A DNA stretch of 64,000 bases from Mesorhizobium sp. B1-1-8 (lineage in GTDB: Bacteria > Pseudomonadota > Alphaproteobacteria > Rhizobiales > Rhizobiaceae): NCBI RefSeq assembly GCF_006442795.2, contig NZ_CP083957.1:310001-374000 (forward strand), written 5' to 3'. The notes beneath the pieces were generated by a model. The model was not told the DNA's origin. It saw only the letters and a program-made list of their open reading frames with translations, and ran no database searches. Positions 3,036 to 59,666 of this stretch are shown piece by piece. Numbering within the stretch: position 1 is the first letter of the stretch; the number at the start of each line of letters is the position of its first letter. Position numbers and translations under genes: made by a program.

Positions 3036-3692
3036 TCATGTCCGATTGTGACGACGCGCCTGCATGACAAAGGCCGAAAAATGGGCCACGTCAGCATCCG
3101 TCGGTTCTTGCCCGGTGAAGCTGCGCAGATAGGCCGCAAGGTGGCCAAGGCGAGTCTCCGCCGGCTCTTTCACATCGAGCACATAGTAGCCTATTTGCAT
3201 GTAATAGAGCACCCGCGCGCGAATGAGAGCGTCCTCGTCGCTGTAGCCATGGCGTAGGTAAAGGTCGCGTATGGCGCCGAGCCTCTTATCATCCGCCTCG
3301 TCGATGATCCTGCGCACTTCGGGGGAGCGGCGTGCCCACTCGCGCACTGCGAAATCGAAGCGTGGATCGAACAGGCTCTCGTCCGCCCAGCATTCAAAGA
3401 CGTTCAGCACACCGCCGATGATGGTCGCGGCGGGCCTTCCCGCTCGTTCGACGATCGCCCTGGTGTTCGTGTCGCGCCAATGCTCAAGCAGGCGATTCAG
3501 CAGATCCTGGCGGCTCTCGAAATAATGGTAGAAGCTCGATCGCGACACGCCGAGCCGCTCGCCCATCTGCAGGACGCGCACGCTTTCCACGCCCTCGGTG
3601 ACCAGCACCTCCAGGGCCAGATTGATCCAGTCCCAGCGCGTCACCTTGACGTTGCCTGGAGCGGGCTCTTTCTGCGACATCAACTTGATCAT
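3036..3692 (-). CDS. TetR-family transcriptional regulator
   Basis: The protein is about 218 residues with an N-terminal TetR helix-turn-helix. The recognition part reads VLQMGERLGVSRSSFYHYFE, followed by the usual SRQDLLNRLLEHW helix. The C-terminal ligand domain is all-helical. I placed the start at the ATG 3690-3692 (MIKLMSQKE); a second ATG four codons later is equally possible because neither has a strong ribosome site. It is divergent from the FAD-GcvT/mttB operon that begins at 3804, and a palindrome lies between them. It therefore most likely controls that operon and itself (inference). The ligand is probably a methylated amine or its product. Confidence 0.85.
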   Translation of the reverse strand: MIKLMSQKEPAPGNVKVTRWDWINLALEVLVTEGVESVRVLQMGERLGVSRSSFYHYFESRQDLLNRLLEHWRDTNTRAIVERAGRPAATIIGGVLNVFECWADESLFDPRFDFAVREWARRSPEVRRIIDEADDKRLGAIRDLYLRHGYSDEDALIRARVLYYMQIGYYVLDVKEPAETRLGHLAAYLRSFTGQEPTDADVAHFSAFVMQARRHNRT

Positions 3693-3739
3693 GACTGACG
3701 AATGACACAGCCCAAAATCTGGCGCAAGGAGGACTAGAC

Positions 3740-3773
3740 ATTGCTGTCCAATCATTGTACACGTATGTCCAAT
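3740..3773. promoter_or_regulatory. Candidate TetR operator region
   Basis: The intergenic region between the TetR gene and the FAD-GcvT gene holds ATTGTACACGTATGTCCAAT at 3754-3773. This is an imperfect 20-bp palindrome with half-site ATTGkACA (7 of 10 positions match). A second arm pair, ATTG-N5-CAAT, lies just upstream at 3740-3752. The octamer TGTCCAAT therefore occurs twice, 21 bp apart. This is typical of a TetR operator, but binding is inferred. Confidence 0.5.
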
Positions 3774-3803
3774 GTCGGGTGGTCCTGATCTTGGGAGGCA
3801 GGG

Positions 3804-6218
3804 TTGAAGTCGCATTACCGGGCCGTCGTAATCGGAGGCGGGGTCGTCGGCGCTTCGGTGCTGTATCACCTCACTAAGCTCGGCTGGACGGATGTTGCCC
3901 TGATCGAGCGGTCTGAACTCACCGCCGGTTCGACATGGCATGCGGCCGCGGGCTTCCACGCTCTGAACGCCGATCCGAACGTCGCCGCCCTCCAAAATTA
4001 TACCATCGGCCTTTATCGCCAGATCGAGGCAGAGTCGGGCCAGGACGTCGGCCTGCATATGACCGGCGGCGTCAATATCGCCAGCGACCCGAACCGTTGG
4101 GAATGGCTGAAATCGGCCTGGGCGGTTTTCCAGTCGGTCGGCATCGAGACGGCGCGCCTGGTTACACCGGACGAAATCAAGGATATCTGCCCCATCGTCG
4201 ATCTGAAGGGCGTTCTCGGCGGCCTCTACGATTCAAACGAGGGACACCTTGATCCATCTGGGGCGACCCATGCCTATGCAGGAGCGGCGCGCAAGCGCGG
4301 CGCAGACGTCATCCTGCGCAATCGCGTGGTCGAACTGAGACCGAGACCGGACGGAAGTTGGGATGTCGTTACCGAAAAGGGCACGATTGTCGCCGAGCAT
4401 GTCGTCAATGCTGGCGGCCTATGGGCAAAGCAGGTCGGCTGGATGGTCGGCCTCGACCTGCCGGTTACACCGCTGGAGCACCATTACCTCGTCACCGAGG
4501 ACATTCCCGAGATCGCCGCGCTCGACCGCGAGATCGGCGTGTCGGTCGACCTGGACGGGTTTTCCTATTTGCGGCAAGAGCGCAATGGGCTGCTGATCGG
4601 TGTTTACGAGCAGGATGCCAGACACTGGAACATGGACGGCGCGCCGTGGGATTACGGCATCGAGCTGATACCGGAAGACATCGAGCGCATCGCGCCGGAG
4701 CTTGCCAGCGCCTATGAGCGCTATCCATGCCTGCAGACTGCCGGCATCAAGAAATGGGTCAATGGCGCCTTCACCTTCACGCCGGACGGCAATCCGATCG
4801 TCGGGCCGGTGCGCGGCCTCAAAAACTACTGGGTGGCCTGCGGCGTCATGGCCGGCTTCAGCCAGGGCGGCGGCGTTGGCAAGTCGCTCGCGGAATGGAT
4901 GATCCATGGCGAGCCGCAGGCCGATGTCTTCGGCTTGGACATCGCCCGCTATGGCGCTTTTGCGGCCAACCGGGAGTATCTCAGGGAGACCACGCACCAG
5001 TTCTATTCACGCCGCTTCGTCATGACCTTCCCGAATGAGCGGCTGCCCGCGGGAAGGCCGCTGAAGCGGCCCGGTGCCTATGAGCGCATGACGGCTTCGG
5101 GCTGCCAGTGGATGGGATCGTGGGGGTTGGAACTGCCGGCCTATTTCGCGCCGGCCGGTTTCGCCGAGGCGCCAACGCTGAAGCGCTCGAATGCTTTCGA
5201 CCTTATCGGCGCTGAAGCACGCGCGGTCCGCCAGCAGGCGGGACTTGTCGATACCTCAGGTTTTTCCCGGTACGAGATTTCCGGACCTGGCGCCGCCGCC
5301 TGGCTCGACCGTCTGCTGGCGGCAAAAATGCCGGAGCCCGGACGCGCTCGGCTCGCGCCGATGCTTGGTCACGACGGACGGCTCAAGGGAGACCTAACCG
5401 TCTTCAACTGGGGCGATGGCCGCTACTGGCTGATGGGCTCCTATTATTTGCGCGAATTCCACATGCGATGGTTCGAAGATCATGTCGCGACCGATGCAAT
5501 CGTCCACGACATTTCCGATACGATGGCCGGCTTTCTGGTCACCGGACCGAACGCGCGCGAGATCCTGGCCGCGACCACGCACTTCGACGTCTCTACCAGC
5601 ACGCTGCCGTTCATGGGCTGCATGGAACTGGATGTCGGCCTTGTTCGGGCGAAAGTCTCCCGGCTGTCCATTGCAGGCGAACTCGGCTTCGAGATCCATT
5701 GTTTTGCCACCGAACATGCAACGCTGCATGAGACGCTGCTGGCTGCCGGGCGCGAGCGCGGACTTGCCCAGGTCGGTTATTACGCCCTGAACTCTCTGCG
5801 CCTGGAAAAGAGCTTTGGCATCTGGTCGCGTGAGTTCACGCAGGCCTATACGGCGGGCATGACCGGTCTCGATCGCTGGATCGCCTTCGACAAGGGCGAC
5901 TTCATCGGCCGCGCCGCCGCGCTTGATGAGCGCGAGCAGGGTGGAACTGAGAGTACCGTCGTGACGCTGGAGGTGGATGCGACGGACGCCGACGCAAGCG
6001 GCTTCGAACCGGTCTGGCACGACGGGCGCCGAGTGGGCTTCATTACATCCGGTGGCTACGGGCACACTGTCGGCAAGAGCATTGCCTTGGCTCTCGTCGA
6101 CAGAGAATTCGCGCGAAAAGGCATAGCGCTATCGGCCCATATCGTGGGCGTGGAGCGGCTCGTCCGGGTGATCGCCGCATCGCCCTACGACCCGCGCGGC
6201 CTTGCGATGCGAGCTTAG
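3804..6218 (+). CDS. FAD-dependent oxidoreductase fused to GcvT domain (DMGDH/SarDH-like), copy 1
   Basis: The 804-residue protein joins an N-terminal DAO-type flavoprotein (residues about 6-370, dinucleotide motif GGGVVGAS at 11-18) to a C-terminal aminomethyltransferase domain (about 430-800). STWHAA places a His at residue 46, the position that carries covalent FAD in dimethylglycine dehydrogenase. The GcvT half contains GELGFEIHC, the folate-site region. Members of this family oxidise an N-methyl group and pass formaldehyde-level carbon to tetrahydrofolate. The start is a TTG with GGGAGG upstream. It precedes mttB by 11 bp, so the two are surely co-expressed. The exact substrate (dimethylglycine, sarcosine, N-methylproline or another) is unknown. 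Confidence 0.9.
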   Translation: MKSHYRAVVIGGGVVGASVLYHLTKLGWTDVALIERSELTAGSTWHAAAGFHALNADPNVAALQNYTIGLYRQIEAESGQDVGLHMTGGVNIASDPNRWEWLKSAWAVFQSVGIETARLVTPDEIKDICPIVDLKGVLGGLYDSNEGHLDPSGATHAYAGAARKRGADVILRNRVVELRPRPDGSWDVVTEKGTIVAEHVVNAGGLWAKQVGWMVGLDLPVTPLEHHYLVTEDIPEIAALDREIGVSVDLDGFSYLRQERNGLLIGVYEQDARHWNMDGAPWDYGIELIPEDIERIAPELASAYERYPCLQTAGIKKWVNGAFTFTPDGNPIVGPVRGLKNYWVACGVMAGFSQGGGVGKSLAEWMIHGEPQADVFGLDIARYGAFAANREYLRETTHQFYSRRFVMTFPNERLPAGRPLKRPGAYERMTASGCQWMGSWGLELPAYFAPAGFAEAPTLKRSNAFDLIGAEARAVRQQAGLVDTSGFSRYEISGPGAAAWLDRLLAAKMPEPGRARLAPMLGHDGRLKGDLTVFNWGDGRYWLMGSYYLREFHMRWFEDHVATDAIVHDISDTMAGFLVTGPNAREILAATTHFDVSTSTLPFMGCMELDVGLVRAKVSRLSIAGELGFEIHCFATEHATLHETLLAAGRERGLAQVGYYALNSLRLEKSFGIWSREFTQAYTAGMTGLDRWIAFDKGDFIGRAAALDEREQGGTESTVVTLEVDATDADASGFEPVWHDGRRVGFITSGGYGHTVGKSIALALVDREFARKGIALSAHIVGVERLVRVIAASPYDPRGLAMRA

Positions 6219-6229
6219 GAGGTGGTCCG

Positions 6230-7771
6230 ATGATCGATAGCGCTGCAAGGGAAAGTCGCCGCGGGCGCCGCACTCGTGGCGCCGAGGCCGGCATGAGGCG
6301 GCCGGACTATCGAATGCTGCGCAACCCGTTTCTGCCGCAGCCGGTCTTTTCGGACGACCAGATAGCTGCCGTCCACGAGACGGCGTTGCGCGTGCTGGAG
6401 GAACTCGGCATCAAGGTACTGCTGGCTGACGCCCGCGATCTCTACCGGCGCGCCGGGGCTCTCGTGGACGATGATACGCAAATGGTGCGCATCGGCCGCG
6501 ACATGGCGGCGGCGGCGCTGGCCTCCGCTCCGGGATCGATCCTGGCGCATGCAGGCGACCGTTCGCGGGACCTCGCACTGGAACTCGGCGCGATGACCTT
6601 CCTGTCAGGATGCGGCGCACCCAATGTCACTGATCTTGATCGTGGCCGCAGGCCCGGCAACTTGGCGGATTTCGAAAACCTCTTGCGCCTCGTGCAAAGC
6701 TTCGACGTGCTGCACATGCTCGGCCCCTGCATCGAGCCGCAGGATGTCGACAACCATCTGCGCCACTATGCGGTCAATCGGGCGCAGCTAACCCTGTCCG
6801 ACAAGTTCCCCTTCATCTTCGCGCGCGGCACGCCGCAGGTCGAGGACGGCTTCGAGATGATCAGGCTGGCACGTGGTCTGTCGGATGACGAATTTCGCGC
6901 CGGCGCCTACTGCTATACGGTCATCAACACCAACTCGCCGCGCCAGCTCGACATCCCGATGGCGCAAGGCATCATCGACTTCGCCAAAGCTGGCCAGGTG
7001 CTGATCATCACGCCCTTCTGCCTGGCCGGCGCCATGGCGCCGATCACGGTGGCCGGCGCGCTGACGCTGCAGCATGCCGAGGCGCTGGCGGGCCTGACCC
7101 TCGCCCAGATCGTGCGTCCCGGCGCGCCGGTGGTCTATGGTTCCTTCTCCTCCAATGTCGACATGAAGTCCGGCGCGCCGGCCTTCGGCACGCCGGAGCA
7201 CGTCAAGGCGACGCTTGGCGCCGGCCAGCTGGCGCGCTTCACCGGCCTGCCCTGGCGCTCCGGCGGTGGCAGCGCCGCCAACACGTCCGATGCGCAAGCG
7301 GCGCATGAGACGCAGTTCGCGCTGTGGGGCTCGGTGCTTGCCGGCGCCACCGTCTGCATCCATGCCGCCGGCTGGCTGGAAGGCGGCTTGAGCGTCTCCT
7401 TCGAGAAGCTGATCACCGACATCGAGGCGCTGCAGACGATCGCCGAGCTTTGCGCGAGCACGCCGGGCGATGCCGAAGCCATCGGCTTCGAAGCCATTGC
7501 CGAAGTTCAGCCGGGCGGGCATTTCTTCTCGGCCGGCCACACCATGGCCCGCTACCGCACCGCCTTTTACGAGCCGCTGGTGGCGGACCTGTCGAATTTC
7601 GGTACGTGGACGGAGGCCGGCTCGCGCACGGCAACCGAACGCGCCAACGGCATCTGGAAGCGGGCGCTCGCGAATTTCCAGCCGCCGCCCTCGGCTGCGG
7701 CCTCGGCCGAAATCCTCGACGAATTCATTGCGCGCCGCACCAAGGAGGGTGGCGCGATGCCCGTCTCCTGA
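6230..7771 (+). CDS. MttB-family (non-pyrrolysine) methyltransferase, copy 1
   Basis: The 513-residue protein belongs to the trimethylamine methyltransferase superfamily (COG5598 type). It carries the conserved core YGSFSSNVDMKSGAPAFGTPE near residues 303-323 and the C-terminal AGWLEGG. The gene is read through without an in-frame amber codon, so it is of the non-pyrrolysine class. That class includes enzymes that demethylate glycine betaine, proline betaine and carnitine. Those known enzymes hand the methyl group to a corrinoid protein, and no such gene is seen here. AGGAGGT precedes the ATG. Its tight coupling to an FAD-GcvT gene suggests the two act in sequence on one betaine (inference). 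Confidence 0.88.
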   Translation: MIDSAARESRRGRRTRGAEAGMRRPDYRMLRNPFLPQPVFSDDQIAAVHETALRVLEELGIKVLLADARDLYRRAGALVDDDTQMVRIGRDMAAAALASAPGSILAHAGDRSRDLALELGAMTFLSGCGAPNVTDLDRGRRPGNLADFENLLRLVQSFDVLHMLGPCIEPQDVDNHLRHYAVNRAQLTLSDKFPFIFARGTPQVEDGFEMIRLARGLSDDEFRAGAYCYTVINTNSPRQLDIPMAQGIIDFAKAGQVLIITPFCLAGAMAPITVAGALTLQHAEALAGLTLAQIVRPGAPVVYGSFSSNVDMKSGAPAFGTPEHVKATLGAGQLARFTGLPWRSGGGSAANTSDAQAAHETQFALWGSVLAGATVCIHAAGWLEGGLSVSFEKLITDIEALQTIAELCASTPGDAEAIGFEAIAEVQPGGHFFSAGHTMARYRTAFYEPLVADLSNFGTWTEAGSRTATERANGIWKRALANFQPPPSAAASAEILDEFIARRTKEGGAMPVS

Positions 7772-7818: not shown

Positions 7819-9471
7819 ATGGACTTTCTGACACGCAATGGCAAACCTGTTCCTGAAACTGTCCAGCGGATGGCGGCGGAGGCGGCCGCGGGACGCATGG
7901 ACCGCCGAGAATTCCTGGCACTCGCCAGCGCCTTCGGGCTTTCGACCGCCGTCGCCTATGGCATGATCGGACTTCCGGCACCGATCGCAATGGCCGCGGA
8001 GGAACCCAGGAAGGGTGGGGTTATCAAGGTCGCCATGCTGGTCAAGGAGATGAAGGATATACGCAGCTTCGACTGGGGCGAAATGGGCAACATCGCCCGC
8101 CAAGTCCTGGAGCCGCTGGTCAGATACACCAAGGATTTCACCTTCAAACCCATGCTCCTCGAAAAATGGGACGTGAACGACGATGCGACCGAATATGTGT
8201 TGCATGTGCGTAAGGGCGTGAAATGGAACAACGGTGACGAGTTCAACGCTGACGACGTCATCTTCAACCTTGAGCGCTGGTGCGAAAAATCGGCGCAAGG
8301 CAATTCCATGGCCGCGCGCATGGCCAGCCTGATCGACCCCGCGACGGGCAAGGCCCGGAACGGCGCCATCGCCAAGGTCGACGACCGGACGGTGAAGCTG
8401 AAGCCGTCGGTGCCGGATATTTCCATTATTCCCGCATTTTCGGATTACCCGGCCCTCATCGTGCATCGCGACTTCGAGAAGATGGGTTCGGATTTCGTGA
8501 AGAACCCGATCGGCACCGGACCGTTCGAACTCGTCTCCTACGAAACCGCCGTGCACGCGGTCTACAAACGGCGCGAGAACGGCGGCCCCTGGTGGGGCGG
8601 CGAGGTTCATCTCGACGGCGTCGAATTCATCGACTACGGCAACGACCCCAACGCCATGATCAGCGCCTTCGAGGCGGGTGAGGTCCATACCAACTATGAG
8701 ACCACCGGCGACTACGTGGCAATCCTCGACAAGATGGGACTGGTGCGCAGCGAAATCCTGACCGCCGGCACACTGACGGCCCGCATGAACGTCAACAACA
8801 AGCCATATGACGACCAGAGGGTGCGCAATGCCGTGCAACTCGCGGTCGACAATGGAGCGGTGCTCGAACTGGGTTACAACAATCTAGGTGAGGTGGCGGA
8901 AAACCACCATGTGTGCAGCATCCATCCCGAATACGCGCCGCTGCCCAAAGTGGAGAGGAACATCGAGAAGGCGAAGGCGCTGATGGCCGAGGCAGGTCAG
9001 GCGGACTTCGAGCACGAGATCATCACCGTCGACGAGGATTGGCAGAAGAACACCGGTGACGCGATCGCGGCGCAGATGCGCGAGGCCGGCTTCAAAGTGA
9101 AGCGCACTGTTCTGCCAGGTTCGACCTTCTGGAACGACTGGACGAAATATCCCTTCTCGCTGACCGTCTGGTCGATGCGGCCGCTCGGTGTACAGGTTCT
9201 GGCCGTCGCCTATCGTTCGGGTGAGGCTTGGAATGAGTCCGGCTTCTCGAATAAGGAATTCGACGAGAAATTGGCGCTGGCGATGGCCACTCCGGACGTG
9301 GAAAAGCGGCGCGCGACTATGAAGGACGTCGAGAAGATCCTTCAGGACTCCGGTGTCCTCGTTCAGGCTTACTGGCGCAAGATCTTCAATCACTCTGCAC
9401 AGGCGGTGAAGAACTATAGCACCCATCCCATGCAGGAAACGATCTTCGAAGAGGTATGGCTGGAAACCTAG
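7819..9471 (+). CDS. Family-5 (DppA/OppA-type) solute-binding protein, Tat-exported
   Basis: This 550-residue protein has the family-5 extracellular solute-binding fold, with [21 protein letters not shown] and DVIFNLERW as hallmark segments. The N-terminus has a [10 protein letters not shown] motif followed by a hydrophobic stretch and AMA cleavage region, resembling a Tat signal although only one basic Arg pair is present. It is 47 bp downstream of mttB copy 1. No permease or ATPase of the Dpp/Opp type accompanies it in the window. It may use permeases encoded elsewhere or serve as a sensory receptor. Its place in the operon suggests the ligand is the operon substrate, although family 5 usually binds peptides, opines or larger amines. 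Confidence 0.85.
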
Positions 9472-9577: not shown

Positions 9578-10621
9578 GTGGCTACACGCTGGACCGAGGA
9601 AAGGCACATCGTCCTTGCTGTTTATCCGGGTGTATCGCTGTTGGATCTGGGCGGACCGCTGGAGGCTTTCCGCGTCTTCTCGGAGTTCGGAGGCGACCAC
9701 CGCATCCGCTACAAATGCACCGTTGTTTCTTCGCAAGGCGGCCAGGTAGCCACGGCTGACGGCGTGCCGCTTGTCGCGCAGTCAATCAAATCCCTCTATC
9801 GTGTGAAGATCGATACGCTGATCGTGCCCGGAGCCTTTCTGATCGATGAGGTCACGCGTGACGTCGATCTCATCAAGTGGGTGGCAAAAACAGGCCCGCG
9901 ATGCCGCCGCGTATGTTCCGTCTGCGTCGGCAGTTTCTTGCTCGCCGCGGCAGGCCTGTTGAAGGGTCGACGCGCCGCCACTCATTGGATGCACGCGAAA
10001 TTGCTTGCCCAACGCTATCCCGAAATAACCGTGGAAGCCGACGCCATTTTTGTCCGCGACGGACGTGTTTGGTCGTCTGCCGGAGTGACTACAGGTATTG
10101 ATCTGGCCTTGGCACTGATCGAGGACGATTGCGGTCGCGAGGCGGCGATGAGCGTTGCGCGTATGCTTGTTGTCTATCTCAAACGCGCCGGCGGTCAATC
10201 GCAGTACAGCGCGCTTCTCGCGACCCAAGGAGAAGCGGATTCTGATGCGTTCGTCGAACTCGACCGTTGGATTGCCGAGAACCTCACCACCTCGCTGAAT
10301 GTCGAGGCTCTGGCGGAGCGTATGCACATGAGCTTGAGGAATTTTACCCGTGTTTACACCCAAAAACGTGGGCGGACTCCCGCCAAGGCGGTGGAGGCAA
10401 TACGCCTCGACGCCGCGCGACGCCTCCTCGAAGAAAGCAATGACCGGATTGAGGTGATCGCCGAGACGTGCGGATATCGGGGCGAGGAGCAAATGCGGGC
10501 CGCGTTTGTGCGTGTGCTAAACGTTCCGCCTCGTGAGTATCGCCGCCGCTTCGGCCCCAGGCACAGATCGTTGGAGAAATCAAACGAAGCCGGCGGCGCC
10601 TGCCAATTCAATTCGCAATGA
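9578..10621 (+). CDS. GlxA-family regulator (DJ-1/PfpI domain plus AraC HTH)
   Basis: The 347-residue protein has an N-terminal DJ-1/PfpI-like domain (about residues 10-190). Its nucleophile-elbow-like segment CSVCVGSFLLAAAGLL is followed by two AraC helix-turn-helix motifs (about 235-330; LAERMHMSLRNFTRVYTQ and the second near GYRGEEQMRAAF). This architecture is shared with GlxA, FtrA, CdhR and GbdR, several of which control betaine or carnitine breakdown. The start is a GTG at 9578 with AAGGA upstream. It follows the solute-binding gene by about 105 bp and probably activates the operon in response to a metabolite (inference). Confidence 0.87.
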   Translation: MATRWTEERHIVLAVYPGVSLLDLGGPLEAFRVFSEFGGDHRIRYKCTVVSSQGGQVATADGVPLVAQSIKSLYRVKIDTLIVPGAFLIDEVTRDVDLIKWVAKTGPRCRRVCSVCVGSFLLAAAGLLKGRRAATHWMHAKLLAQRYPEITVEADAIFVRDGRVWSSAGVTTGIDLALALIEDDCGREAAMSVARMLVVYLKRAGGQSQYSALLATQGEADSDAFVELDRWIAENLTTSLNVEALAERMHMSLRNFTRVYTQKRGRTPAKAVEAIRLDAARRLLEESNDRIEVIAETCGYRGEEQMRAAFVRVLNVPPREYRRRFGPRHRSLEKSNEAGGACQFNSQ

Positions 10622-12052: not shown

Positions 12053-13107
12053 CTACCCCAGTCCGGGACCTACCCAGGGCGGCACGATGGCCCGACACTG
12101 TTGCGGCGAGATGCCGTTGAAAGCTCTGAAGCACAGGCAAAATGCGAGGCAGACATGAAGCCGCTGGCCATGGCGATATCGATCATGGGCATGCGCGTGC
12201 TTTCGATCAGGCGCTTGGCATGGTCTGTGCGAATCCGAAGATAGTGCCGCACCGGCGGCAGGCCGATATGCGTGGCGAACAAGCGTTCCAGCTGGCGCCG
12301 CGACACTCCTGCCCGATGCGCGACTTCCTCCATGGATAGCGGAAATTCGACATTCTCTTCCATGATCCGCATTGCCATCAGAAGCTTGTCGCTCACGCCG
12401 GAAAAAGCAAGACCTGACGGCCCAGTCTGTCGGTTTGACCCAGACCGCTGACCTTCGACGGTCGCGTGCCGGCAGACCTCTTGAGCAATGTAGTCGCCTG
12501 CGTGGCCGCCGATCAGATCCACCGCGAGATCGAACGCCGCCAGTTCGCCGGCGCAGGTCGAATACTGGCCGTCCTTGACAAAGAGTGAGTCGCGGATCCG
12601 TGGTCTGTGGAACACTTCGGAAAAGGCGGCGAGCCGCGACCAGTGAATCGTGCAGCGTGTATCCGCCAAGAGGCCGGTTTGGGCGAGCAGCCAGGTTGCC
12701 GTGCCGACGGCTGATATCGGCACCCCACTCCGCGCGATACCCCGCAGAAAACTGTTGAGCTGCGGCGTCAGCTGCTTTTCCACCAGTTCGCCCGCGACGA
12801 TGGCGAGTTGATAGGCCCTCCGGTCGCCGATGCCGGCCGAGAGTTCGCCCATCGAAGCATCGACCGCGACTGAAAGCCCGTTTGCTCCTTCGACGGGCTG
12901 CCTGCTCGTTCCCACGATCTGCCAGCGGAACAGCGGCAACCGGGAGACTGCATTGGCGATGCGGAACGGCTCGACATAAGCGTGAAGCGCGAGGTGGGAA
13001 AAGCCGGGCAATACCAGCACCGCGACATCAAACGGACGCACCGCCGCCACCGCCGTTTCCGCCGTGGTCAGCCCCTTCAATGCGCTGATGTTGGCCGGCG
13101 CGTTCAT
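12053..13107 (-). pseudogene. GlxA/GbdR-type AraC regulator with C-terminal frameshift
   Basis: The first 320 residues form a normal regulator: a DJ-1/PfpI domain (VLVLPGFSHLALHAYVEPFR near 30-50) and a first helix-turn-helix (MEEVAHRAGVSRRQLERLF). The second helix-turn-helix begins as IAMASGFMSASHF and then leaves frame. Reading one base over restores CFRAFNGISPQQCRA, the expected AraC ending, which stops at 12053-12055. So a 1-base deletion lies near 12133-12138; the unrepaired frame stops at 12070. The ATG at 13105-13107 overlaps the stop of hpbD (ATGA). Its N-terminus resembles GbdR-like betaine regulators. It is either inactive or a sequencing error. Confidence 0.75.
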
Positions 13108-14209
13108 CGCTCCGCGTATGTGACCACCGGCTTGCCGAACATGCCGGATTCCGGTTTCACGCCCAGCCCAGGTCGCTGCGGCACAGCGATATGACCCTTT
13201 TCGATGACGACCGCGTTCTTTGTGTCGAAATGCCCGTCGATATATTCCTGTGCGATCCACGCGCCCTCCATGCGACGCGGCTCGACCGTGGCAGCTAGAT
13301 GGACACACGCCGCCGGTCGCCGCCCCCGGCGTCATCGCAGCTGTGCGGCAAGGAGCGAATGGCGCAAAGATCGCGCACGGTCGCCATCTTGGTGAGGCCG
13401 CCGAGGCGCGTCACTTTGAAGCCGAAGCCGTCGGCGATGCCCCGCGAGATCGCGCGCAGCACCGCGTTCTGGTCCTCGGTGCTCTCGTCGAGATAGACCG
13501 GGTGCGTCACGCGGCCCTTGAGCGTCGCGATCTCGTCCATCGTGTTGCAGGGCTGTTCGAAGACGAAGGGGACCGCCTGGCAGAGCCTGTCGAGATGGAT
13601 CGCGGCGGCTACCGTCAAGCCCCTGTTGCCGTCGACCGCGATCCGCGCCTTGTAGCCGACGGCTTCCCGGACCTTGTGGACGGTCGCCACATCCTGCTCG
13701 AGGTTGCGCCCGGCGATCTTGACCTGAAGGCGCGGATAGCCGGCCTGCACCTTCTCGGCGGCGATCCGTGCCGTCTCGTCGGGCTGGCCGACGATCAGCG
13801 AATAGTAGGACGGCAAGCGCTCCGTCAGCGCGCCGCCCAGCAGCGTCGAGACCGGCACGCCGAGCTTCTGGCCGAACAGGTCGAGAAAGGCCATGTCGAA
13901 CGCGGCCTTCGCATAGCCGTGGCCGTTCAGGCGCTCGTCCATGCGTTTTGCCAGCAACCTGATCGAAGCGATTTCCGCGCCTATGAGACCAGGCGCGATT
14001 TCGGCGATCGCGGCGCGAGCGCCGAGCACATGATGCGGCTGGTAGACCGGGCCGATCGGGCAGGTCTCGCCCCAGCCGGTTAAACCGTTGTTTGTCACAA
14101 CTTCGATAAGGGTACTGTCCAGCGACTCCACGTCGTCGCTCGCCATCCGATAGACGCCGCCTTTGACCGGCAATTGGGCCGCATAGATGTTGATCCGATC
14201 GATGCGCAC
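13104..14209 (-). pseudogene. hpbD: 4-hydroxyproline betaine 2-epimerase-like (enolase superfamily), frameshifted
   Basis: The first 290 codons match the HpbD subgroup of the mandelate-racemase/enolase superfamily. LPVKGGVYRMAS, GWGETCPIGP, LQVKIAGR with the first catalytic Lys, VDGNRG, EQPCNT, LDES and GFGFKVTRLGG with the second Lys are all seen. After SCDDAGGGD the frame is lost. In another frame AACVHLAATVEPRRMEGAWI and the normal end GKPVVTYAER follow, with the stop at 13104-13106. Comparison with HpbD implies about 7 missing bases near 13306-13316 and a Trp-to-Gly change just before, so real decay is more likely than a sequencing slip. The start is a GTG 2 bp after the mttB stop. Confidence 0.8.
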
Positions 14210-14211
14210 GC

Positions 14212-15765
14212 TCAGAATTCCTCATTCAACGCATCGACGGCGGGGATCTCGCGCGAGCGCCGGTCGATATAAGCGCGCAGTTCCTCGTCTTTCGCAATGT
14301 CGAGCGCGGGTTCTTGATACTCGGCCAAGAGCCGGCGGGCATGCTCCAGCGCGCGCTGCTTGATGTCCTTGGCGCCGTCCGCGTACCACTGCTCGATCGA
14401 GTTGTTGTCGAACAGTTTTGGGATGAAGAAGGCGCGTTCGAAGTTGGCCTGCGTATGCGGATGACCAAGGTAATGACCGCCTGGCCCGACATCGCGCACC
14501 GCTGCCAGGGCCTCGTCGAAGTCGTCCCACTGGATGCCTTGCGTCATGCGGTAGCCCATGGCGCAAACCTCGGCGTCGACGACGAACTTCGCGATCGAGC
14601 AGTGCATGCCGGCTTCATTCCAACCTGCCGAATGCCATATGTAGTTGGCACCTGACATCAGCACCGCCATCATGGTCATCGCGCTCTCGTAGCCGGCCTG
14701 CGCGTCGAAGACCTTGGCCCCGCCGAGCAGGTTGGAAGTGCGCCAGGGCACGTTGTAGCGGCGGGCCATCTGGCCGATCATGAAGTTCATCAGCGAGATT
14801 TCCGGCGTGCCCGCCATCGGCGCGCCCGACTGCATCGACACGGTCGAGAGATAATGCCCGTAGATCGCCGGGCAGCCCTTGCGCACCACTTGCGTGTAGG
14901 CAAGCGCGGAAAGCGCCTCGGCATTGAGCTGTGCGACAGCCGCTGCGGTGGAGGCCGGCGTGTTCGCGCCGCCGAGAACGAAGGGCGAGCAAAGAACCGG
15001 CTGGTTGCGCCGGCAGAAGGCGCGCATGGCGCCAAGCATCACCTGGTCCCAGACCAGCGGCGAATTGCCGTTGCAGTTGCCGGTCGTGACCGCATGCGTC
15101 TCGAGGAAGTCCTTCCCAAAAAGGATCTCGCACATGTCGAGCACATCCTCGGCATTCTTGGGCGAGGTGGTCATGCCCATGAAGATCTTGTCGGAGTGCT
15201 TCACCGACGAATAGGTGATGTGCAAGTGCCGGTGCGCGACGACGATGTCCATCGGCTCGACGATGTGGTGCGCAGATGAATGCAGCGCCGGCATCATATG
15301 CGCGAGCTTATGGAAGGTGCCGAGATCCGCGATGGTCGGGCCGCGCCTGACATCGTCGAGGTCGCGCATATAGGGCGCGCCGGTCATCGGCACGAAGATC
15401 GACTTCGGCCCACCGAGCTCGACATTCTTCGCCGGATCGCGCGCGAAATATTCGATCCTGGAAGGAATGGTCTTGATGAGCTCCATGACCAGGCCGCGAT
15501 CGAGATGGACGCGGTCGTCCGCCCGCACGTCGGCGCCTGCCCTCTTCCAGTCCTCGATCGCGATCGGATCGCGGAAAACCACGCCGACGTCTTCCAGAAT
15601 GGCGAGAGACGCCTCGTGGATGCGCTCGACCTGTTCGGCGTTCATCGGCTCAACGACCGGAAGGCCGCGCTTGAGCGTCGGCAGCATGTCGATCTTTGGC
15701 GCCGTGCGGATCGTCCGCCGCGCCTCCCGCCCCCCTCTACGAGATACTTGCAGTTGAGCAGTCAT
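14212..15765 (-). CDS. MttB-family (non-pyrrolysine) methyltransferase, copy 2
   Basis: The 517-residue protein has the same core as the other two copies (STVSMQSGAPMAGTPE, then SAGWNEAGMHCS) but is the most divergent: the AGWxEGG motif is AGWNEAG. There is no in-frame amber codon. GGAGG lies nine bases before the ATG. It is directly followed by the broken hpbD gene and a GbdR-like regulator, which points to hydroxyproline betaine (betonicine) or proline betaine as substrate (inference from neighbours). No FAD-GcvT gene accompanies this copy, unlike copies 1 and 3. No corrinoid acceptor protein is nearby. Confidence 0.87.
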   Translation of the reverse strand: MTAQLQVSRRGGREARRTIRTAPKIDMLPTLKRGLPVVEPMNAEQVERIHEASLAILEDVGVVFRDPIAIEDWKRAGADVRADDRVHLDRGLVMELIKTIPSRIEYFARDPAKNVELGGPKSIFVPMTGAPYMRDLDDVRRGPTIADLGTFHKLAHMMPALHSSAHHIVEPMDIVVAHRHLHITYSSVKHSDKIFMGMTTSPKNAEDVLDMCEILFGKDFLETHAVTTGNCNGNSPLVWDQVMLGAMRAFCRRNQPVLCSPFVLGGANTPASTAAAVAQLNAEALSALAYTQVVRKGCPAIYGHYLSTVSMQSGAPMAGTPEISLMNFMIGQMARRYNVPWRTSNLLGGAKVFDAQAGYESAMTMMAVLMSGANYIWHSAGWNEAGMHCSIAKFVVDAEVCAMGYRMTQGIQWDDFDEALAAVRDVGPGGHYLGHPHTQANFERAFFIPKLFDNNSIEQWYADGAKDIKQRALEHARRLLAEYQEPALDIAKDEELRAYIDRRSREIPAVDALNEEF

Positions 15766-37395: not shown

Positions 37396-37512
37396 CCGCA
37401 ACTCCGACTGTGACGCTTCATAAGTTTTCCTAATGTCGCGAAATTTGGGTTGAGCGCAAGCGGCTTGGCGGGAGATTGTGGCGTTCGATCCAGCGAAGGT
37501 GCTCCCACAAGG

Positions 37513-39960
37513 ATGAATGACAGCGCACGAATCGTGATCATTGGCGGCGGCCTCATTGGCCTCGGCATAGCGTTTCATCTTGCCAACCTGGGAGTGAACG
37601 ATGTCGTCCTTCTGGAGCGCCACCAGCTGACTAGCGGCACCTCTTGGCATGCGGCCGGAATTGTCGGCCCGTTGCGTGCCAGCCTCAACCTGACAAGGCT
37701 CGCGCAATACGCTACTGAGCTGTTTCCCCGCCTCGAGGAACTGACCGGACAGGCGTCCGGTTACAGGCGCACCGGCGGGCTGTGGCTGGCGCGTCGCCCA
37801 GAGCGCATGGACGAGCTGAAACGCATCGCGCATATGGGCGATGTCTGCGGCTTGACGGTTGCTATGGTCGACCGGGGCGGCGTGGCGGAGCGAGTGTGCG
37901 GCATCGTCGCGGACGATGTCGAAGGCGCGCTGTGGGTCGAGGAAGACGGCCAGGCCAATCCGGTCGATATTTGCGCCGCCTATCCGAAACGGGCCCGCGC
38001 GGCTGGCATCCGCATTCTGGAAGGAGCCGCTTGCTCGGGCATCTTGATCCGCAACGGCCGGATCGCCGGCGTCAAGCTGGCCTCCGGCGTCACATTCGAT
38101 TGCGAGATCCTCGTCAATTGCGCCGGCGCCTGGGCGCGCGAGATCGGCGCTCTCGCCGGTGTTCCCGTGCCGTTGCAGGCCGTGGAACACATGTATGTCG
38201 TGACCGAGCCGATCGCGGGCCTGCAGGATCCATTTCCCATACTGCGCGACCTCGACGAGGGTATCTATATCAAGGGCGATTCCGGAAAGCTGGTGCTGGG
38301 TGGGTTCGAGCCGAACGCCAAGCTCTTCGACGTCCGAGGTCCGGCCGGCGATAGGCCGTTCCTCGAACTGCCGGAGGATTGGGAGCAGTTCGAGCCATTC
38401 ATGGCGGCGGGACTGAACCTGCTGCCGGCATTGTCTCAGACTGGCATCAGGCATTTCATGAACGGGCCGGAGAGTTTTACGCCCGACACGAGGCCGCTCA
38501 TGGGCGAGTCACCCTATTTGCGCGGCTTCTATGTGGCCGCCGGCTTCAACTCGACAGGTATGATGTCCTCGGCAGGCGCCGGCAAGGCCATGGCCGAGTG
38601 GATCGTCGACGGCGAACCTGGGCTCGATCTCTGGTCGCTCGACATCGCGCGCTTCGACCGTTCCGCGGCAGCGCGCTCCTTTGTCGGCGCCAGGATGGAA
38701 GAAGCAGTCGCAGACCTGTTCCGCATGCATTGGCCCTACAAGCAGCCGATGGCCGGACGTGACGTGAGGCGCTCCGCCTTTCACCGTGCGTTCGCCGAAG
38801 CGGGTGCTGTATTCGGTGCGCCGACCGGCTGGGAGCGGCCGCTCTGGTTCGGTAGCGCGGAAACACGCGGTTATTGTGTCGGTGCGCAGAAATGGTGGAA
38901 CGCGGCAAGGGCAGAGGCCCAGCGGATGGCTGCAGGTGTCGGCCTGTTCGAGCTTTCGCCGTTCACCAAGCTGGATGTGCGCGGACGCGATGCGGCCACG
39001 CTGATGCAATGCCTGTGCACAGCCGATATCGACAGGCCTGAGGGCCACGCCGTCTATACGCAGATGCTGAACGCGCGGGGCGGCATCGAGGCCGACGTGA
39101 CGGTCGCGCGGGTCGGAGAGAACGCTTTCCGCGTGATCTCCGGCGCGGCGACAAGGCAGAAGGACCTTGCCTGGATCAGCCGGCATGCCGAGGATTTTGG
39201 CCTCAATGTTTCGGTCTTCGACGCTACGTCCGCGGAAGCCGTTCTCGGCGTCATGGGGCCGCGCTCGCGCACACTGCTGCAGAGCCTGACCGATGCCGAT
39301 CTTTCCGATGCGGCGTTTCCGTTCTCGACCTCGCGCCACATCGATATCGGCACCGCCACCATCCGGGCTACGCGCGTCAGCTTTGTCGGCGAGCTCGGTT
39401 TCGAGCTCTATGTGCCGGTCGAACATGCCGAGAGCGTGCTGGCGATAGTCGCCGCCGCGGGCGGTGCTCATGGCCTGGCCTATTGCGGTCACTACGCGCT
39501 GGACGGTTGTCGGCTGGAAAAGGGCTATCGCCACTGGAGCCACGATATCGGGCCGAAGGATACCCCGCTGGAAGCGGGCCTTTCCTTCGCAATTTCCTGG
39601 AACAAGGATGATTTCATCGGACGCGATGCGCTGCTGAAGCAAAAAAGCGAAGGTGTGCGGCGCCGGCTGATGCATTTCGCCGTCGATAGCGCCAATCCCT
39701 TGCTGCTGCATGACGAGCCCATCTATCGAAACGGCAGACTGGCCGCACTGACAACCTCAGGTGGTCTCGGCGGTCGCACGGGCCTGAGCCTTTGCCTGGG
39801 CTACGTTGCCTGCGATCCGGACGAGACGAAGATGCAACTGCTGGCCGGCGAATATGAGATCGCGGTGGCTGGAACACGCTACAGGCTGCGACCACTCGAC
39901 AAACCACCCTATGATCCAACCGGGTCGCGCATGCGCGCAAGCGCGGAGCAAAACTCATGA
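37513..39960 (+). CDS. FAD-dependent oxidoreductase fused to GcvT domain, copy 2
   Basis: The 815-residue protein has the same plan as copy 1: a DAO-type flavoprotein (IIGGGLIGLG near 9-18, SWHAAG with His 46) and a C-terminal GcvT domain (about 435-810) with GELGFELYVP. The His at the covalent-FAD position is kept. It overlaps the next FAD-GcvT gene by four bases (ATGA), so the two are translationally coupled and may form a heteromer or act on successive methyl groups. The start is not certain: the ATG at 37513 has AAGG directly adjacent, and a TTG upstream at 37450 stays in frame. The substrate is probably a dimethylated or monomethylated amine. Confidence 0.88.
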   Translation: MNDSARIVIIGGGLIGLGIAFHLANLGVNDVVLLERHQLTSGTSWHAAGIVGPLRASLNLTRLAQYATELFPRLEELTGQASGYRRTGGLWLARRPERMDELKRIAHMGDVCGLTVAMVDRGGVAERVCGIVADDVEGALWVEEDGQANPVDICAAYPKRARAAGIRILEGAACSGILIRNGRIAGVKLASGVTFDCEILVNCAGAWAREIGALAGVPVPLQAVEHMYVVTEPIAGLQDPFPILRDLDEGIYIKGDSGKLVLGGFEPNAKLFDVRGPAGDRPFLELPEDWEQFEPFMAAGLNLLPALSQTGIRHFMNGPESFTPDTRPLMGESPYLRGFYVAAGFNSTGMMSSAGAGKAMAEWIVDGEPGLDLWSLDIARFDRSAAARSFVGARMEEAVADLFRMHWPYKQPMAGRDVRRSAFHRAFAEAGAVFGAPTGWERPLWFGSAETRGYCVGAQKWWNAARAEAQRMAAGVGLFELSPFTKLDVRGRDAATLMQCLCTADIDRPEGHAVYTQMLNARGGIEADVTVARVGENAFRVISGAATRQKDLAWISRHAEDFGLNVSVFDATSAEAVLGVMGPRSRTLLQSLTDADLSDAAFPFSTSRHIDIGTATIRATRVSFVGELGFELYVPVEHAESVLAIVAAAGGAHGLAYCGHYALDGCRLEKGYRHWSHDIGPKDTPLEAGLSFAISWNKDDFIGRDALLKQKSEGVRRRLMHFAVDSANPLLLHDEPIYRNGRLAALTTSGGLGGRTGLSLCLGYVACDPDETKMQLLAGEYEIAVAGTRYRLRPLDKPPYDPTGSRMRASAEQNS

Positions 39961-42422
39961 GACAGCAGGCCCGCGTGGTCGTTATCGGCGGCGGCGCCAT
40001 GGGCGTGTCGCTGCTCTATCACCTCGCCAAGCGAGGCTGGAGCGATGTCATGCTGGTCGAGAGACAGGAGCTGACTGCAGGCTCCACCTGGCACGCGGCA
40101 GGGCTTTGCACGCATTTCGCCCATAACGCGACGATCATGGAGATGCGCGCGCATTCGGTGCGGCTTTACCGCGAGATCCTGACCGAGGAGACCGGGCTGC
40201 CGACCGGCTTCCATGCCAGCGGCGCGCTGCGCATTACCCGCTCGAAGGAGCGCATGGACGAATTCCGCCATGTGCAGGGACTCGGCCGGTTCGTCGGCCA
40301 TGATTTCCATATCCTCAGCCCCGGCGAGCTCAACGAAATTTATCCGCTCTGTCACACGGACGGGATCATCGGCGCCATCTACGAGCCCAATGACGGCCAT
40401 GTCGACCCGACTCTGGCGACCAATGCCATGGCCACCGGCGCGCGTTCGCGCGGTGCTGAGATCGTGCGCCACAATCCGGTGCTGGGGATCGAGCGCAAAG
40501 CATCCGGAGAATGGCTCGTCCGCACCGAGCAGAGCGACATTGTCGCCGAGCATATCGTCAACGCGGCCGGCACATGGTGCCGCGAAATCGGCACCATGTT
40601 CGGCATCGACCTGCCTGTCGTGCCGATGCTCCATCAGTATGTCGTGACCGACACGGTTCCAGAGATCGCCGAGCGTACCGCCGGGGGCGCCAAGGAACTG
40701 CCGATCATCCGTGATCCGGAGGAGAGCTGGTACCTGCGCCAAGAGCGCGACGGCTACATCGTCGGCCCTTACGAAAAGTCGGCCCATCCTTGGGCGATCG
40801 ACGGCGTGCCGCCCGAGTTCGGCATGGACTTGCTGCCGCCGGATCTCGATCGCGTCGAGCACATCATCACGCTTGCGATGGACCGAGTGCCGGCGCTTGC
40901 CAATGCCGGCATCAAGACGGTGGTGAACGGTCCGATCACCTTCACGCCGGACGCCAATCCGCTGATCGGTCCGGCCTTCGGTCTCGGCAAAGCTTGGCTC
41001 CTCACCGGCTCCAGCATGGGCGTGATGGAGGGCGGCGGCGCCGGCCGCTTTCTCGCCGACTGGATCATCGACGGGTCGCCGCCGAGCGATGCCTTGGCCA
41101 TCGATCCGCGCCGGTTCGGCAACTTCGCCGACCGGGACTATCGCATTGACAAGGCGATCGAAGGCTTCGGCATGCAGTTCGGCATCCACTATCCCAACGA
41201 GGAACGCGAAGCGGGCCGCCCACGCCGCACGACGCCAGCGCTTGAGCTTCAAAAAAGCCAAGGCGCGGTGCTGGGCGCCGCCTATGGCTGGGAGCGGCCG
41301 AACTGGTTCGCCGTCAAAGGCGCCGACCGCGATCCGCCGCTCACCTTCCGCAAACCCGGCTGGTTTGACGCTGTGCGCGGCGAGTGCCTTGCGGTGCGAG
41401 ATGGCGTCGGCGCCATCGACCTTTCCGCCTTGTCAAAGTTCGAGATCAGTGGGCGTGGTGCTGATGCCTTCATGAGTTCTCTCGGCTCCAACCGGCCGCC
41501 TGAGCGCCATGGCCGCCTTGGGCTTGTCCACGTGCTGACGGCAAACGGTGGCGTGGCATCCGAATTTACCGTGACGCGTCTTGGTGACGGCGTGTTCTAT
41601 CTGACGAGCGCGGCGCTTGCGGAACGGCATGATGAGGATCTGCTGCGCGCGCGCGCAGCGGCCTTCCCGGGCGTGACAATCGACAATGTCACCGAAAGGC
41701 GGGGCGTGCTCGCCATCATGGGCCCTCGTGCTCGCGACCTCCTTGGAAAGCTCTGCGAAGCCGATCTGTCAAATCCAGCCTTCCCCTGGCTTTCGGCCCA
41801 GATCATCCGCGTGGCGGGCATCAAGGCAGCCGCGTTGCGGGTGTCTTACGCCGGCGAGCTCGGATGGGAATTGCACGTGCAACTCGCGCAGTTCGGCAAG
41901 CTCTATGAGGCGATCACCAAAGCCGGAGTGCAATTCGATTTACGCCCGTTCGGCATCTACGCGCTGAACGCGATGCGGCTGGAGAAGGGCTATCGCAGCT
42001 GGGGTGCCGACTTAACCACCGAGCGTACGCCGCTGGAGGCCGGGTTAGACGCGCTGGTCAAGACGGACGGCCGGAAATTCGTCGGTTGCGAGGCAGTGCT
42101 GGAGCGCGTCGGCAAACGCTCCTGGTCAATGGTCATGCTTGAGATCGAGGACGACGGCGCGAGGCTTCCTTTCTACGCCCATACGGTGATCCAGGCGGGC
42201 CGCCCGGTAGGCATCATCACCTCCGGCGCCCATGGCTTCCGGACCGGTAAGACCATCGCCCTTGCCTATCTGAGGCCCGGTGTTGTGGCGGAAGGTCTGA
42301 CCGTCTCGATCCTCGGCAAGGAACTGTCGGCGGTGGAGCTGAAGAAAGCTCCTTACGATCCGAACAATCTGCGGCTGCGCGGCCTGCAGGCCGATGCGCC
42401 GGTTGCCTTCATGCCCGCTTGA
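39957..42422 (+). CDS. FAD-dependent oxidoreductase fused to GcvT domain, copy 3
   Basis: This 821-residue protein shares the two-domain architecture: VIGGGAMGVSLLYHL (about 9-23), TWHAAG with His 46, and a GcvT half (about 440-815) with GELGWELHVQ. Its start ATGA overlaps the stop of copy 2. By order of sequence features it is closer to copy 1 (TAGSTWHAA in both) than to copy 2. It is followed 14 bp later by mttB copy 3, repeating the FAD-GcvT/mttB pairing seen at 3.8-7.8 kb. The family oxidises N-methyl groups and charges tetrahydrofolate. Which N-methyl amine is used is not known. Confidence 0.9.
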   Translation: MRQQARVVVIGGGAMGVSLLYHLAKRGWSDVMLVERQELTAGSTWHAAGLCTHFAHNATIMEMRAHSVRLYREILTEETGLPTGFHASGALRITRSKERMDEFRHVQGLGRFVGHDFHILSPGELNEIYPLCHTDGIIGAIYEPNDGHVDPTLATNAMATGARSRGAEIVRHNPVLGIERKASGEWLVRTEQSDIVAEHIVNAAGTWCREIGTMFGIDLPVVPMLHQYVVTDTVPEIAERTAGGAKELPIIRDPEESWYLRQERDGYIVGPYEKSAHPWAIDGVPPEFGMDLLPPDLDRVEHIITLAMDRVPALANAGIKTVVNGPITFTPDANPLIGPAFGLGKAWLLTGSSMGVMEGGGAGRFLADWIIDGSPPSDALAIDPRRFGNFADRDYRIDKAIEGFGMQFGIHYPNEEREAGRPRRTTPALELQKSQGAVLGAAYGWERPNWFAVKGADRDPPLTFRKPGWFDAVRGECLAVRDGVGAIDLSALSKFEISGRGADAFMSSLGSNRPPERHGRLGLVHVLTANGGVASEFTVTRLGDGVFYLTSAALAERHDEDLLRARAAAFPGVTIDNVTERRGVLAIMGPRARDLLGKLCEADLSNPAFPWLSAQIIRVAGIKAAALRVSYAGELGWELHVQLAQFGKLYEAITKAGVQFDLRPFGIYALNAMRLEKGYRSWGADLTTERTPLEAGLDALVKTDGRKFVGCEAVLERVGKRSWSMVMLEIEDDGARLPFYAHTVIQAGRPVGIITSGAHGFRTGKTIALAYLRPGVVAEGLTVSILGKELSAVELKKAPYDPNNLRLRGLQADAPVAFMPA

Positions 42423-42436
42423 TCAGGGAGACAAAA

Positions 42437-43993
42437 ATGGACAAGGACGCGACGGTCGACGCTCCAGCACCACGAAGCGGGGGCCGTTCTGGAAGGCAAG
42501 GCCACCGCATGGCCCAGCTCGCGCCGCGGCGGCCTTATATCAGCCGCCGCATCGGCACTTTCAACATCCTCAACGAAGAGGGGTTGAGCCTGATAGAGGC
42601 AAATGCCGATCGGCTTCTCAAGGAGGTCGGCATGGAGTTTCATGACGATCCCGAAATCCTAGATATCTTTCGCGACGCCGGCGCCGACGTGCAGGGCACT
42701 AGGGTGCGCTTCGAGCCTGGTATGTGCCGCAGGATCATCAGCGCCACCGCCCCTTCACAGTTCAAGCAGCACGCCCGCAACCCGGCGAACACGCTGGTGA
42801 TCGGCGGTGACAACATCGTGCTCTGTCCATCCTGGGGGCCACCATTCGTGCATGATCTCGATCGCGGCCGGCGCTATGCCACGATCTCGGACTTCCGCAA
42901 TCTGGTGAAGATCCATCAGATGATCCCGTATCTGCACCACTCGGGCGGCGTCGTTTGCGAGCCTGTCGACCTGCCGGCCAACAAGCGGCATCTCGACATG
43001 CTCTACACGCATATCCGTCACTCGGACCGCGCTTTCATGGGTGCGTTCATCGGCTCGCAACGAGCGCAGGACGCGGTCGACATGGCCAAGATCGTGTTTG
43101 GCGCGGATTTCGTTGCCAATAACGGCGTGCTCTACAACGTGTCGAACACCAACGCGCCGCTGGTGCTCGATGCCAACATGTCCGGCTCGCTGAAGGTCTA
43201 TGCCCGCAACAACCAGCCGGTCGCCTGCACGCCGTGGACGTTAGCCGGTGCGATGAGCCCCTGCACCGTCGCCGGCACGCTGGCGCAGGTGCTCGCCGAG
43301 GCGCTTGCGTGCCTTTCGCTGGTCCAGCTTATCAATCCTGGAGCACCGTGTCTGATGGGGAGCTTTGCAAGCACCATCTCCATGCAAAGCGGCGCGCCGA
43401 CGTTCGGCACGCCGGAAGCGGCAAAGATGGTTTTGGCGGCCGGTCAACTGGCGCGAAGGGTCGGTGTCCCATTCCACACAGTCGGCACGCTTTCAGCATC
43501 CAAGCTGCCGGACGCGCAGGCGGAGCAGGAAGGGACCTTGGGGCTGCTGATGTCGCTTCTCGCCGGCGCGAACGTCATCAATCACGCGACGGGATGGCTG
43601 GAGGGAGGGCTTGTTACCGGCTTTGAGAAGACCATCATCGACGCCGATCTTTGCGGCAAGGTGATGAGTCTGTTCGAAGGCATCGACCTGTCGGTGAACG
43701 CGCAGGCGATGGATGCCATTGAGGAAGTCGGGCCCGGGTCGCATTTCCTCGGCAGCGCCCATACACAGTCGAACTTCCTGTCGGCCTTCTACCGTTCGAC
43801 GATCAGCGACAACAATTCGTTCGAGCAGTGGAATGCCGAAGGCGGCCTGGATGCCGCCCAGCGCGCCAATCGCCAGTGGAAGAAGCTTCTAAGCGACTAT
43901 GTGGACCCTAGCCTTGATCCCGCAATCGATGAAGAGCTGCAAGCTTTCATCGCCAAGCGTAAGGAGAGCATGCCGGACCAGGATTATTTCTGA
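42437..43993 (+). CDS. MttB-family (non-pyrrolysine) methyltransferase, copy 3
   Basis: The 518-residue protein carries MGSFASTISMQSGAPTFGTP and HATGWLEGGLVTGFEKTIID, the same core as copy 1. It has no in-frame amber codon. GGGAGACAAAA precedes the ATG at 42437; an upstream in-frame ATG exists without a site. It is the last gene of a three-gene operon with two FAD-GcvT genes. By analogy with known non-pyrrolysine members it should remove a methyl group from a quaternary amine, but the methyl acceptor is not evident because no corrinoid protein is encoded nearby. It is convergent with the ABC transporter downstream. Confidence 0.88.
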   Translation: MDKDATVDAPAPRSGGRSGRQGHRMAQLAPRRPYISRRIGTFNILNEEGLSLIEANADRLLKEVGMEFHDDPEILDIFRDAGADVQGTRVRFEPGMCRRIISATAPSQFKQHARNPANTLVIGGDNIVLCPSWGPPFVHDLDRGRRYATISDFRNLVKIHQMIPYLHHSGGVVCEPVDLPANKRHLDMLYTHIRHSDRAFMGAFIGSQRAQDAVDMAKIVFGADFVANNGVLYNVSNTNAPLVLDANMSGSLKVYARNNQPVACTPWTLAGAMSPCTVAGTLAQVLAEALACLSLVQLINPGAPCLMGSFASTISMQSGAPTFGTPEAAKMVLAAGQLARRVGVPFHTVGTLSASKLPDAQAEQEGTLGLLMSLLAGANVINHATGWLEGGLVTGFEKTIIDADLCGKVMSLFEGIDLSVNAQAMDAIEEVGPGSHFLGSAHTQSNFLSAFYRSTISDNNSFEQWNAEGGLDAAQRANRQWKKLLSDYVDPSLDPAIDEELQAFIAKRKESMPDQDYF

Positions 43994-46710: not shown

Positions 46711-46755
46711 CGGCTACAGCTCCCGTCCGATCACGGGCTTTAGCGGCCTGGCGAC

Positions 46756-46803
46756 AATGCAGGCCCTTTTGGGGCCTGCATTGGCCCTTTTGGGGCCTGC
46801 ATT
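46756..46803. repeat. Tandem 21-bp repeat forming hairpins
   Basis: A 21-bp unit occurs twice without a gap at 46762-46782 and 46783-46803. With the preceding five bases the first copy forms a perfect 11-bp stem (46756-46766 pairing with 46772-46782, loop TTTTG). It lies between the binding-protein stop and the ATPase start, so it can act as an RNA processing or attenuation site in the transporter transcript. Confidence 0.8.
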
Positions 46804-46817
46804 TTCCGTCCTCGACT

Positions 46818-59591: not shown

Positions 59592-59666
59592 GTCGAACTT
59601 GTCTTCGCTGGTTTTGAAAAGCACTGAACCTGGGCTGCCACCCAGATTCAGCGCGATCGGGTCCCT

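Follow-up and report, generated by a model that had tools for sequence, protein, structure and literature searches.

An MttB and FAD-GcvT gene pair of Mesorhizobium sp. B1-1-8 as a probable branch of the cobalamin-dependent betaine demethylation system

Introduction

Where does the methyl group go when a gene for an MttB-type methyltransferase stands beside an oxidoreductase gene and no corrinoid protein is encoded nearby? The question is raised by a stretch of 64,000 nucleotides from Mesorhizobium sp. B1-1-8 (contig NZ_CP083957.1, positions 310,001 to 374,000), here called the window, in which a gene for a dimethylglycine-dehydrogenase-like FAD-GcvT protein is followed by one for a non-pyrrolysine MttB homologue (locus 1). 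An earlier note, made from the window alone, had described the two genes as lying 11 bp apart, and we recovered the open reading frames (ORFs), domains and gap just so; it had also proposed an aerobic demethylation route in which the two proteins work together, possibly with a different methyl acceptor. Here we place the pair within its genome, which consists of two contigs (6.19 Mb) and has the window as part of contig C2, and within related genomes. We consider it very probable that the locus-1 pair encodes the substrate-specific part of an aerobic betaine demethylation that depends on cobalamin and draws on a shared corrinoid protein, MtgC.

A route of this kind, the MtgBCD(E) system for glycine betaine demethylation and split methionine synthase activity, has been described in aerobic Alphaproteobacteria (Mausz et al. 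2025, PNAS; PMC12478193). In Ruegeria, MttB passes a methyl group to MtgC and MtgD passes it on to tetrahydrofolate (THF), followed by MetF2 and then by steps predicted for dimethylglycine and sarcosine; mutants in mtgC or mtgD do not grow on glycine betaine and are methionine auxotrophs, and two MttB homologues are induced on this substrate (PMC12478193). The genes of the system are dispersed in Ruegeria, later demethylation genes often lie near mtgBCD in marine bacteria, S. meliloti has mtgBCDE in one place, and such bacteria hold up to seven MttB-domain genes, for which the authors suggest diverse substrates (PMC12478193). For Eubacterium limosum, excerpts of PMC8604678 describe MtpB, MtcB and MtyB as sharing one corrinoid protein (MtqC), reactivase and THF methyltransferase, and state that MtyB does not methylate free cobalamin.

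Results

A genome-wide search placed the sole B12-binding_2 match and the sole RACo_middle match of the genome on the other contig, C1, and none in the window. The corrinoid set lies near C1:2.885-2.914 Mb (stretches L011 and L012), where Pfam identified a RACo-type (RamA-type) reactivase (L011:5053-7122), MtgD with a Pterin_bind domain (L011:7534-8508), a MetF of the MTHFR family (L011:8589-9680), a protein with the MTHFR C-terminal domain (L011:9677-10348), DUF1638 (L011:13792-14538), MtgC with B12-binding and B12-binding_2 domains and a GDIHDIG motif (L011:14706-15515), an MttB adjoining MtgC (L011:15676-17250), an MtgE-like S-methyl_trans protein (L012:3552-4589), and a FAD-GcvT (L012:9010-11592) paired with another MttB (L012:11721-13610); MtgC, MtgD and MtgE are named after PMC12478193. 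Three further FAO_M matches lie at C1:2.849-2.875 Mb, and the genome has a CobN match. The earlier note was right that the 64 kb hold no corrinoid protein or reactivase gene, but this absence ends with the window: MtgC, MtgD, the RamA-type reactivase and DUF1638 are all encoded in the genome and, together with MetF, the MtgE-like protein and several MttB paralogues, make up the known MtgBCD(E) set. The note had named a corrinoid protein and methyltransferase elsewhere in the genome, and required, as the finding that would speak against its proposal; their presence on C1 is observed, and that the locus-1 MttB requires them is what we infer. The search gave no match to MetE and no sign of a classical MetH in the genome (its B12-binding_2 match is single), and MtgC, MtgD and the MtgE-like protein appear to account for methionine synthesis here.

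The MttB beside MtgC scores 968.9 bits against S. meliloti 4yyc, which makes it the better glycine-betaine candidate, and we therefore treat locus 1 as an MttB branch of the MtgBCD(E) system rather than as MtgB itself. Locus 1 is on C2 and MtgC on C1, so the proximity of MttB and corrinoid genes, a common but not required feature, is not seen here.

To ask how general the association is, we searched an evenly drawn set of 199 genomes from the same order, with at least 90% completeness requested, calling MtgC at E-values up to 1e-45. MttB was found in 70 genomes, MtgC in 75 and a RamA-type protein in 79, and both MtgC and RamA were present in 69 of the 70 genomes with MttB. The lone exception (G136) carries an MttB fragment (profile positions 3-234) at a contig end of a 1250-contig assembly. 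Among the 129 genomes without MttB, MtgC occurred in 6 (one match being only 44% identical) and RamA in 10 (one below the family cut-off). Fisher tests, made with no correction for kinship, gave 3.8e-45 for MttB with MtgC and 2.6e-41 for MttB with RamA. The distance from MtgC to the best MttB, available for 68 genomes with coordinates, was at most 1.5 kb in 34 and at most 20 kb in 19 more, while in 15 the two were farther apart or on another contig. MtgC was also found in all 49 searched genomes (of 80) that have an orthologue of the locus-1 MttB, though three have it only in pieces. Roughly half of the 49 contain a classical MetH-like match as well (a long open frame at 35-39% identity), and the split methionine synthase is thus not the sole one everywhere.

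The locus-1 FAD-GcvT (3804..6218, + strand) has 804 residues and a TTG start. It contains the Pfam domains DAO, FAO_M, GCV_T and GCV_T_C, the architecture of dimethylglycine dehydrogenase, and its best PDB match is that enzyme (4pab, 549 bits, residues 4-784); 4p9s and 5l46 likewise align over nearly its full length. It carries a STWHAA motif, and the histidine of WHAA, which we take to be the covalent FAD site, is kept in 15 of 15 aligned paired proteins. The protein is thus a predicted tertiary-amine demethylase yielding methylene-THF; it differs from dimethylglycine dehydrogenase in being the operon partner of an MttB. The two genes run in tandem on the same strand, with an AGGAGG-type ribosome-binding site in the intergenic gap of 11 bases (6219..6229) ahead of the MttB start.

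The MttB gene (6230..7771, +; 513 residues, ATG start) is open under translation table 11 and has no in-frame amber codon, so its product lacks pyrrolysine. The PF06253 (MTTB) domain matches over its full length (residues 10-508, 635 bits), conserved family positions are present, and phmmer finds MtgB (2qne, 9yce) and S. meliloti 4yyc at ~290 bits. Foldseek matches the predicted structure, whose mean predicted local distance difference test (pLDDT) score is only 63.3, to 2qne, 9yce, 4yyc and 7xcl with a query template-modelling (TM) score of 0.70-0.75, and also to the MttB-MttC complex 7xcn. The fold is therefore that of the trimethylamine methyltransferase MttB of Methanosarcina barkeri (7xcl, 7xcn), from which the locus-1 protein differs in lacking pyrrolysine and in its low identity (23-24%). 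We reject an enzyme of another kind, since fold and family match MtgB, and predict a quaternary-amine:corrinoid methyltransferase. That this MttB has lost its methyltransferase function, as its 35% identity to the MtgB-type paralogue might suggest, is scarcely credible: the family match is full length with its conserved positions, and the frame is open at 70-88% identity over 80 orthologous loci, whose named bearers are mostly Mesorhizobium.

We then examined the pairing itself across these 80 loci, counting as a neighbour any FAD-GcvT match that covered 90% or more of the protein with an identity of at least 55%. A FAD-GcvT stands beside MttB in 61; one of the loci has the reversed gene order (L095), and in two of the 61 (L065, L092) the match is in two pieces, possibly broken genes. 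Sixteen loci have no FAD-GcvT, and three (L057, L063, L082) have short remnants upstream of a full MttB match, which point to secondary loss of the partner. More distantly, we sampled 40 MttB loci (about every second row, hand-counted ranks 54-134, among the best-scoring order-wide matches listed) and found a full-length FAD-GcvT within the 8-12 kb stretch in 10, in six of which it shares the strand of the MttB and lies no more than 1.3 kb away; partial oxidase-half matches in L111, L115, L117 and L135 were left out of the ten. Over 15 pairs chosen by hand, the distances among MttB proteins are correlated with those among their FAD-GcvT partners (r 0.78, with none of 5000 permutations as high).

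Within the genome itself there are nine MttB genes, nine FAO_M matches and one match each to B12-binding_2 and RACo_middle. Four of the nine MttB genes adjoin a FAD-GcvT, versus ~0.03 expected by chance if nine of each family are scattered among an estimated ~6000 genes. The locus-1 MttB clusters with two further MttB proteins that have a partner (45-47% identity), and the FAD-GcvT proteins of these pairs cluster in the same way (48-63%), while the MttB of a second pair in the window, locus 2, is closer to the MtgB type (57%) and its partner is of another type.

These data bear on two other explanations of the pair. The first is that both enzymes are real and merely co-regulated, each with a substrate of its own. 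MttB is indeed kept in the 19 loci where FAD-GcvT is missing or a remnant, but the tight operon at locus 1, the recurrence of pairing in two MttB types, the occurrence of both gene orders and the correlated distances make this unlikely. The second, which we hold to be less probable still and very unlikely, dispenses with the corrinoid: MttB would hand its methyl group to a new acceptor, such as folate on the GcvT domain of the FAD-GcvT protein beside it. The repeated adjacency, the correlated divergence and the window without a corrinoid gene would suit it. Against it stand the full corrinoid set elsewhere in the genome, MtgC and RamA in 69 of 70 MttB genomes, and an MttB without an adjacent FAD-GcvT in 16 of the 80 loci and in a second copy that is 88% identical (C1, L015:7843-9396, - strand). 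GcvT domains, moreover, take up carbon at the methylene level. Characterised relatives, in the excerpts of PMC8604678, methylate a corrinoid protein. We reject a corrinoid-free acceptor on genome content and co-occurrence, as a reading that is not needed. A related idea is a long shot: the two locus-1 proteins would bind each other and channel the demethylated intermediate directly, with MttB turning to THF on the GcvT domain as its acceptor whenever cobalamin runs short.

Divergent to the pair is a TetR regulator (3036..4058, - strand; PF00440 at residues 146-189), whose longest ORF overlaps the FAD-GcvT start although the TetR domain begins only at residue 146. Counted by eye, 45 of the 80 loci have a TetR match on the upstream side of the pair or of MttB. 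Downstream, a family-5 solute-binding protein (7819..9471, +; PF00496), possibly co-transcribed with the pair, recurs directly 3' of MttB in three of the 80 loci (L026, L087, L089; 85-91% identity), and a GlxA/GbdR-type AraC regulator with DJ-1/PfpI and helix-turn-helix domains follows (9578..10621, +). Among the 22 widest-spread ORF clusters in the flanks of the 80 loci, compared by sequence starts, we found no transporter that names the substrate. By the same comparison, several ORFs around the L015 MttB copy are similar to flanking ORFs at many of the 80 loci. The best DNA matches in a search for related plasmids, two Leisingera plasmids, reached only 5% coverage, and an ORF scan of two further parts of the window added nothing.

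Elsewhere in the window, the domain and ORF scan showed an overlapping FAD-GcvT/MttB pair at locus 2 (39957..43993, +), preceded by an additional FAD-GcvT (37450-39960, +). The three genes stand in a row (37450-43993, +) with overlaps of 4 bases each and face a choline/betaine-type ATP-binding cassette (ABC) transporter (44067-47783); row and transporter look like a complete three-step N-demethylation cassette. A third MttB (14212..15765, -), without a FAD-GcvT, lies beside an enolase-family gene (13295-14209 and 12070-13335, both -) that matches 4e8g, 2pmq and 4h2h, presumably hydroxyproline-betaine epimerase structures, only to residue 298 of ~376-391; the gene may be broken, as its end appears to be out of frame. 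Another betaine-type ABC transporter (56419-60602, -) comprises OpuAC, an ATPase and a permease with two BPD_transp_1 stretches.

Discussion

Taken together, the genes suggest a pathway whose reactions, shared hub and step order we infer as follows. The locus-1 MttB would remove one methyl group from a quaternary amine, probably a plant-type betaine, and hand it to the Co(I) of the single MtgC encoded on C1; MtgD would pass it to THF, with the MetF-type reductase of the hub oxidising it, and the RamA/DUF1638 module would re-reduce the cobalamin. The FAD-GcvT would then oxidise the dimethylamine product to the monomethylamine, trapping the carbon as methylene-THF. One hub serving all MttB paralogues would also explain why locus 1 has no corrinoid gene. 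The repeated pairing that the earlier note saw is borne out by the 61 of 80 loci and the four of nine MttB genes here; its aerobic route with MttB and FAD-GcvT working together agrees with their adjacency and co-occurrence, while its different methyl acceptor gives way to the corrinoid set of the genome.

Several points weigh against this pathway. Identity between the locus-1 MttB and the MtgB-type protein of its own genome is only 35%. In excerpts of PMC9842639, most docking contacts of the MttB-MttC structure are attributed to a C-terminal loop of the partner subunit; a stretch aligning with this loop exists in the locus-1 MttB, but there its identity to the MtgB-type paralogue is 32% versus 36% elsewhere, which argues neither way, and the region is poorly modelled (residues 410-466 below a pLDDT of 50), so that docking to MtgC is only predicted. 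The 16 loci without a FAD-GcvT and the three with remnants mean that the two genes are not an obligate pair, the correlation of their distances fits joint function and common descent alike and does not separate them, and the co-occurrence counts may owe something to kinship.

Locus 1 is thus ordinary in kind and well conserved, and probably belongs to the pathway described in 2025 rather than to a B12-free route. It differs from MtgBCD(E) as described in lying on another contig than the hub and in the divergence of its MttB. With the MtqC-centred system of E. limosum it probably shares the arrangement of several substrate-specific MttB proteins on one corrinoid protein; that organism, however, is an acetogen that feeds methyl-THF into the Wood-Ljungdahl pathway, and the excerpts of PMC8604678 name no FAD-GcvT partner. 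Our literature search on operons of MttB-type methyltransferases with FAD/GcvT oxidoreductases found no matching paper, and among the matches listed for proline betaine epimerase with methyltransferase, as excerpted, none concerns locus 1. In Mesorhizobium alhagi, mttB is strongly salt-induced, its knockout has no salt phenotype, and its function is called unknown in the excerpts of PMC4302635.

A missing partner gene, then, should not be read from a window alone. By our analysis, a rhizobial betaine locus joins the cobalamin-dependent route that was recently demonstrated for a marine bacterium. Nine MttB paralogues here face one corrinoid protein, which probably doubles as the core of the sole methionine synthase; if so, root-associated bacteria would have their use of plant betaines linked to the supply of B12 and methionine.

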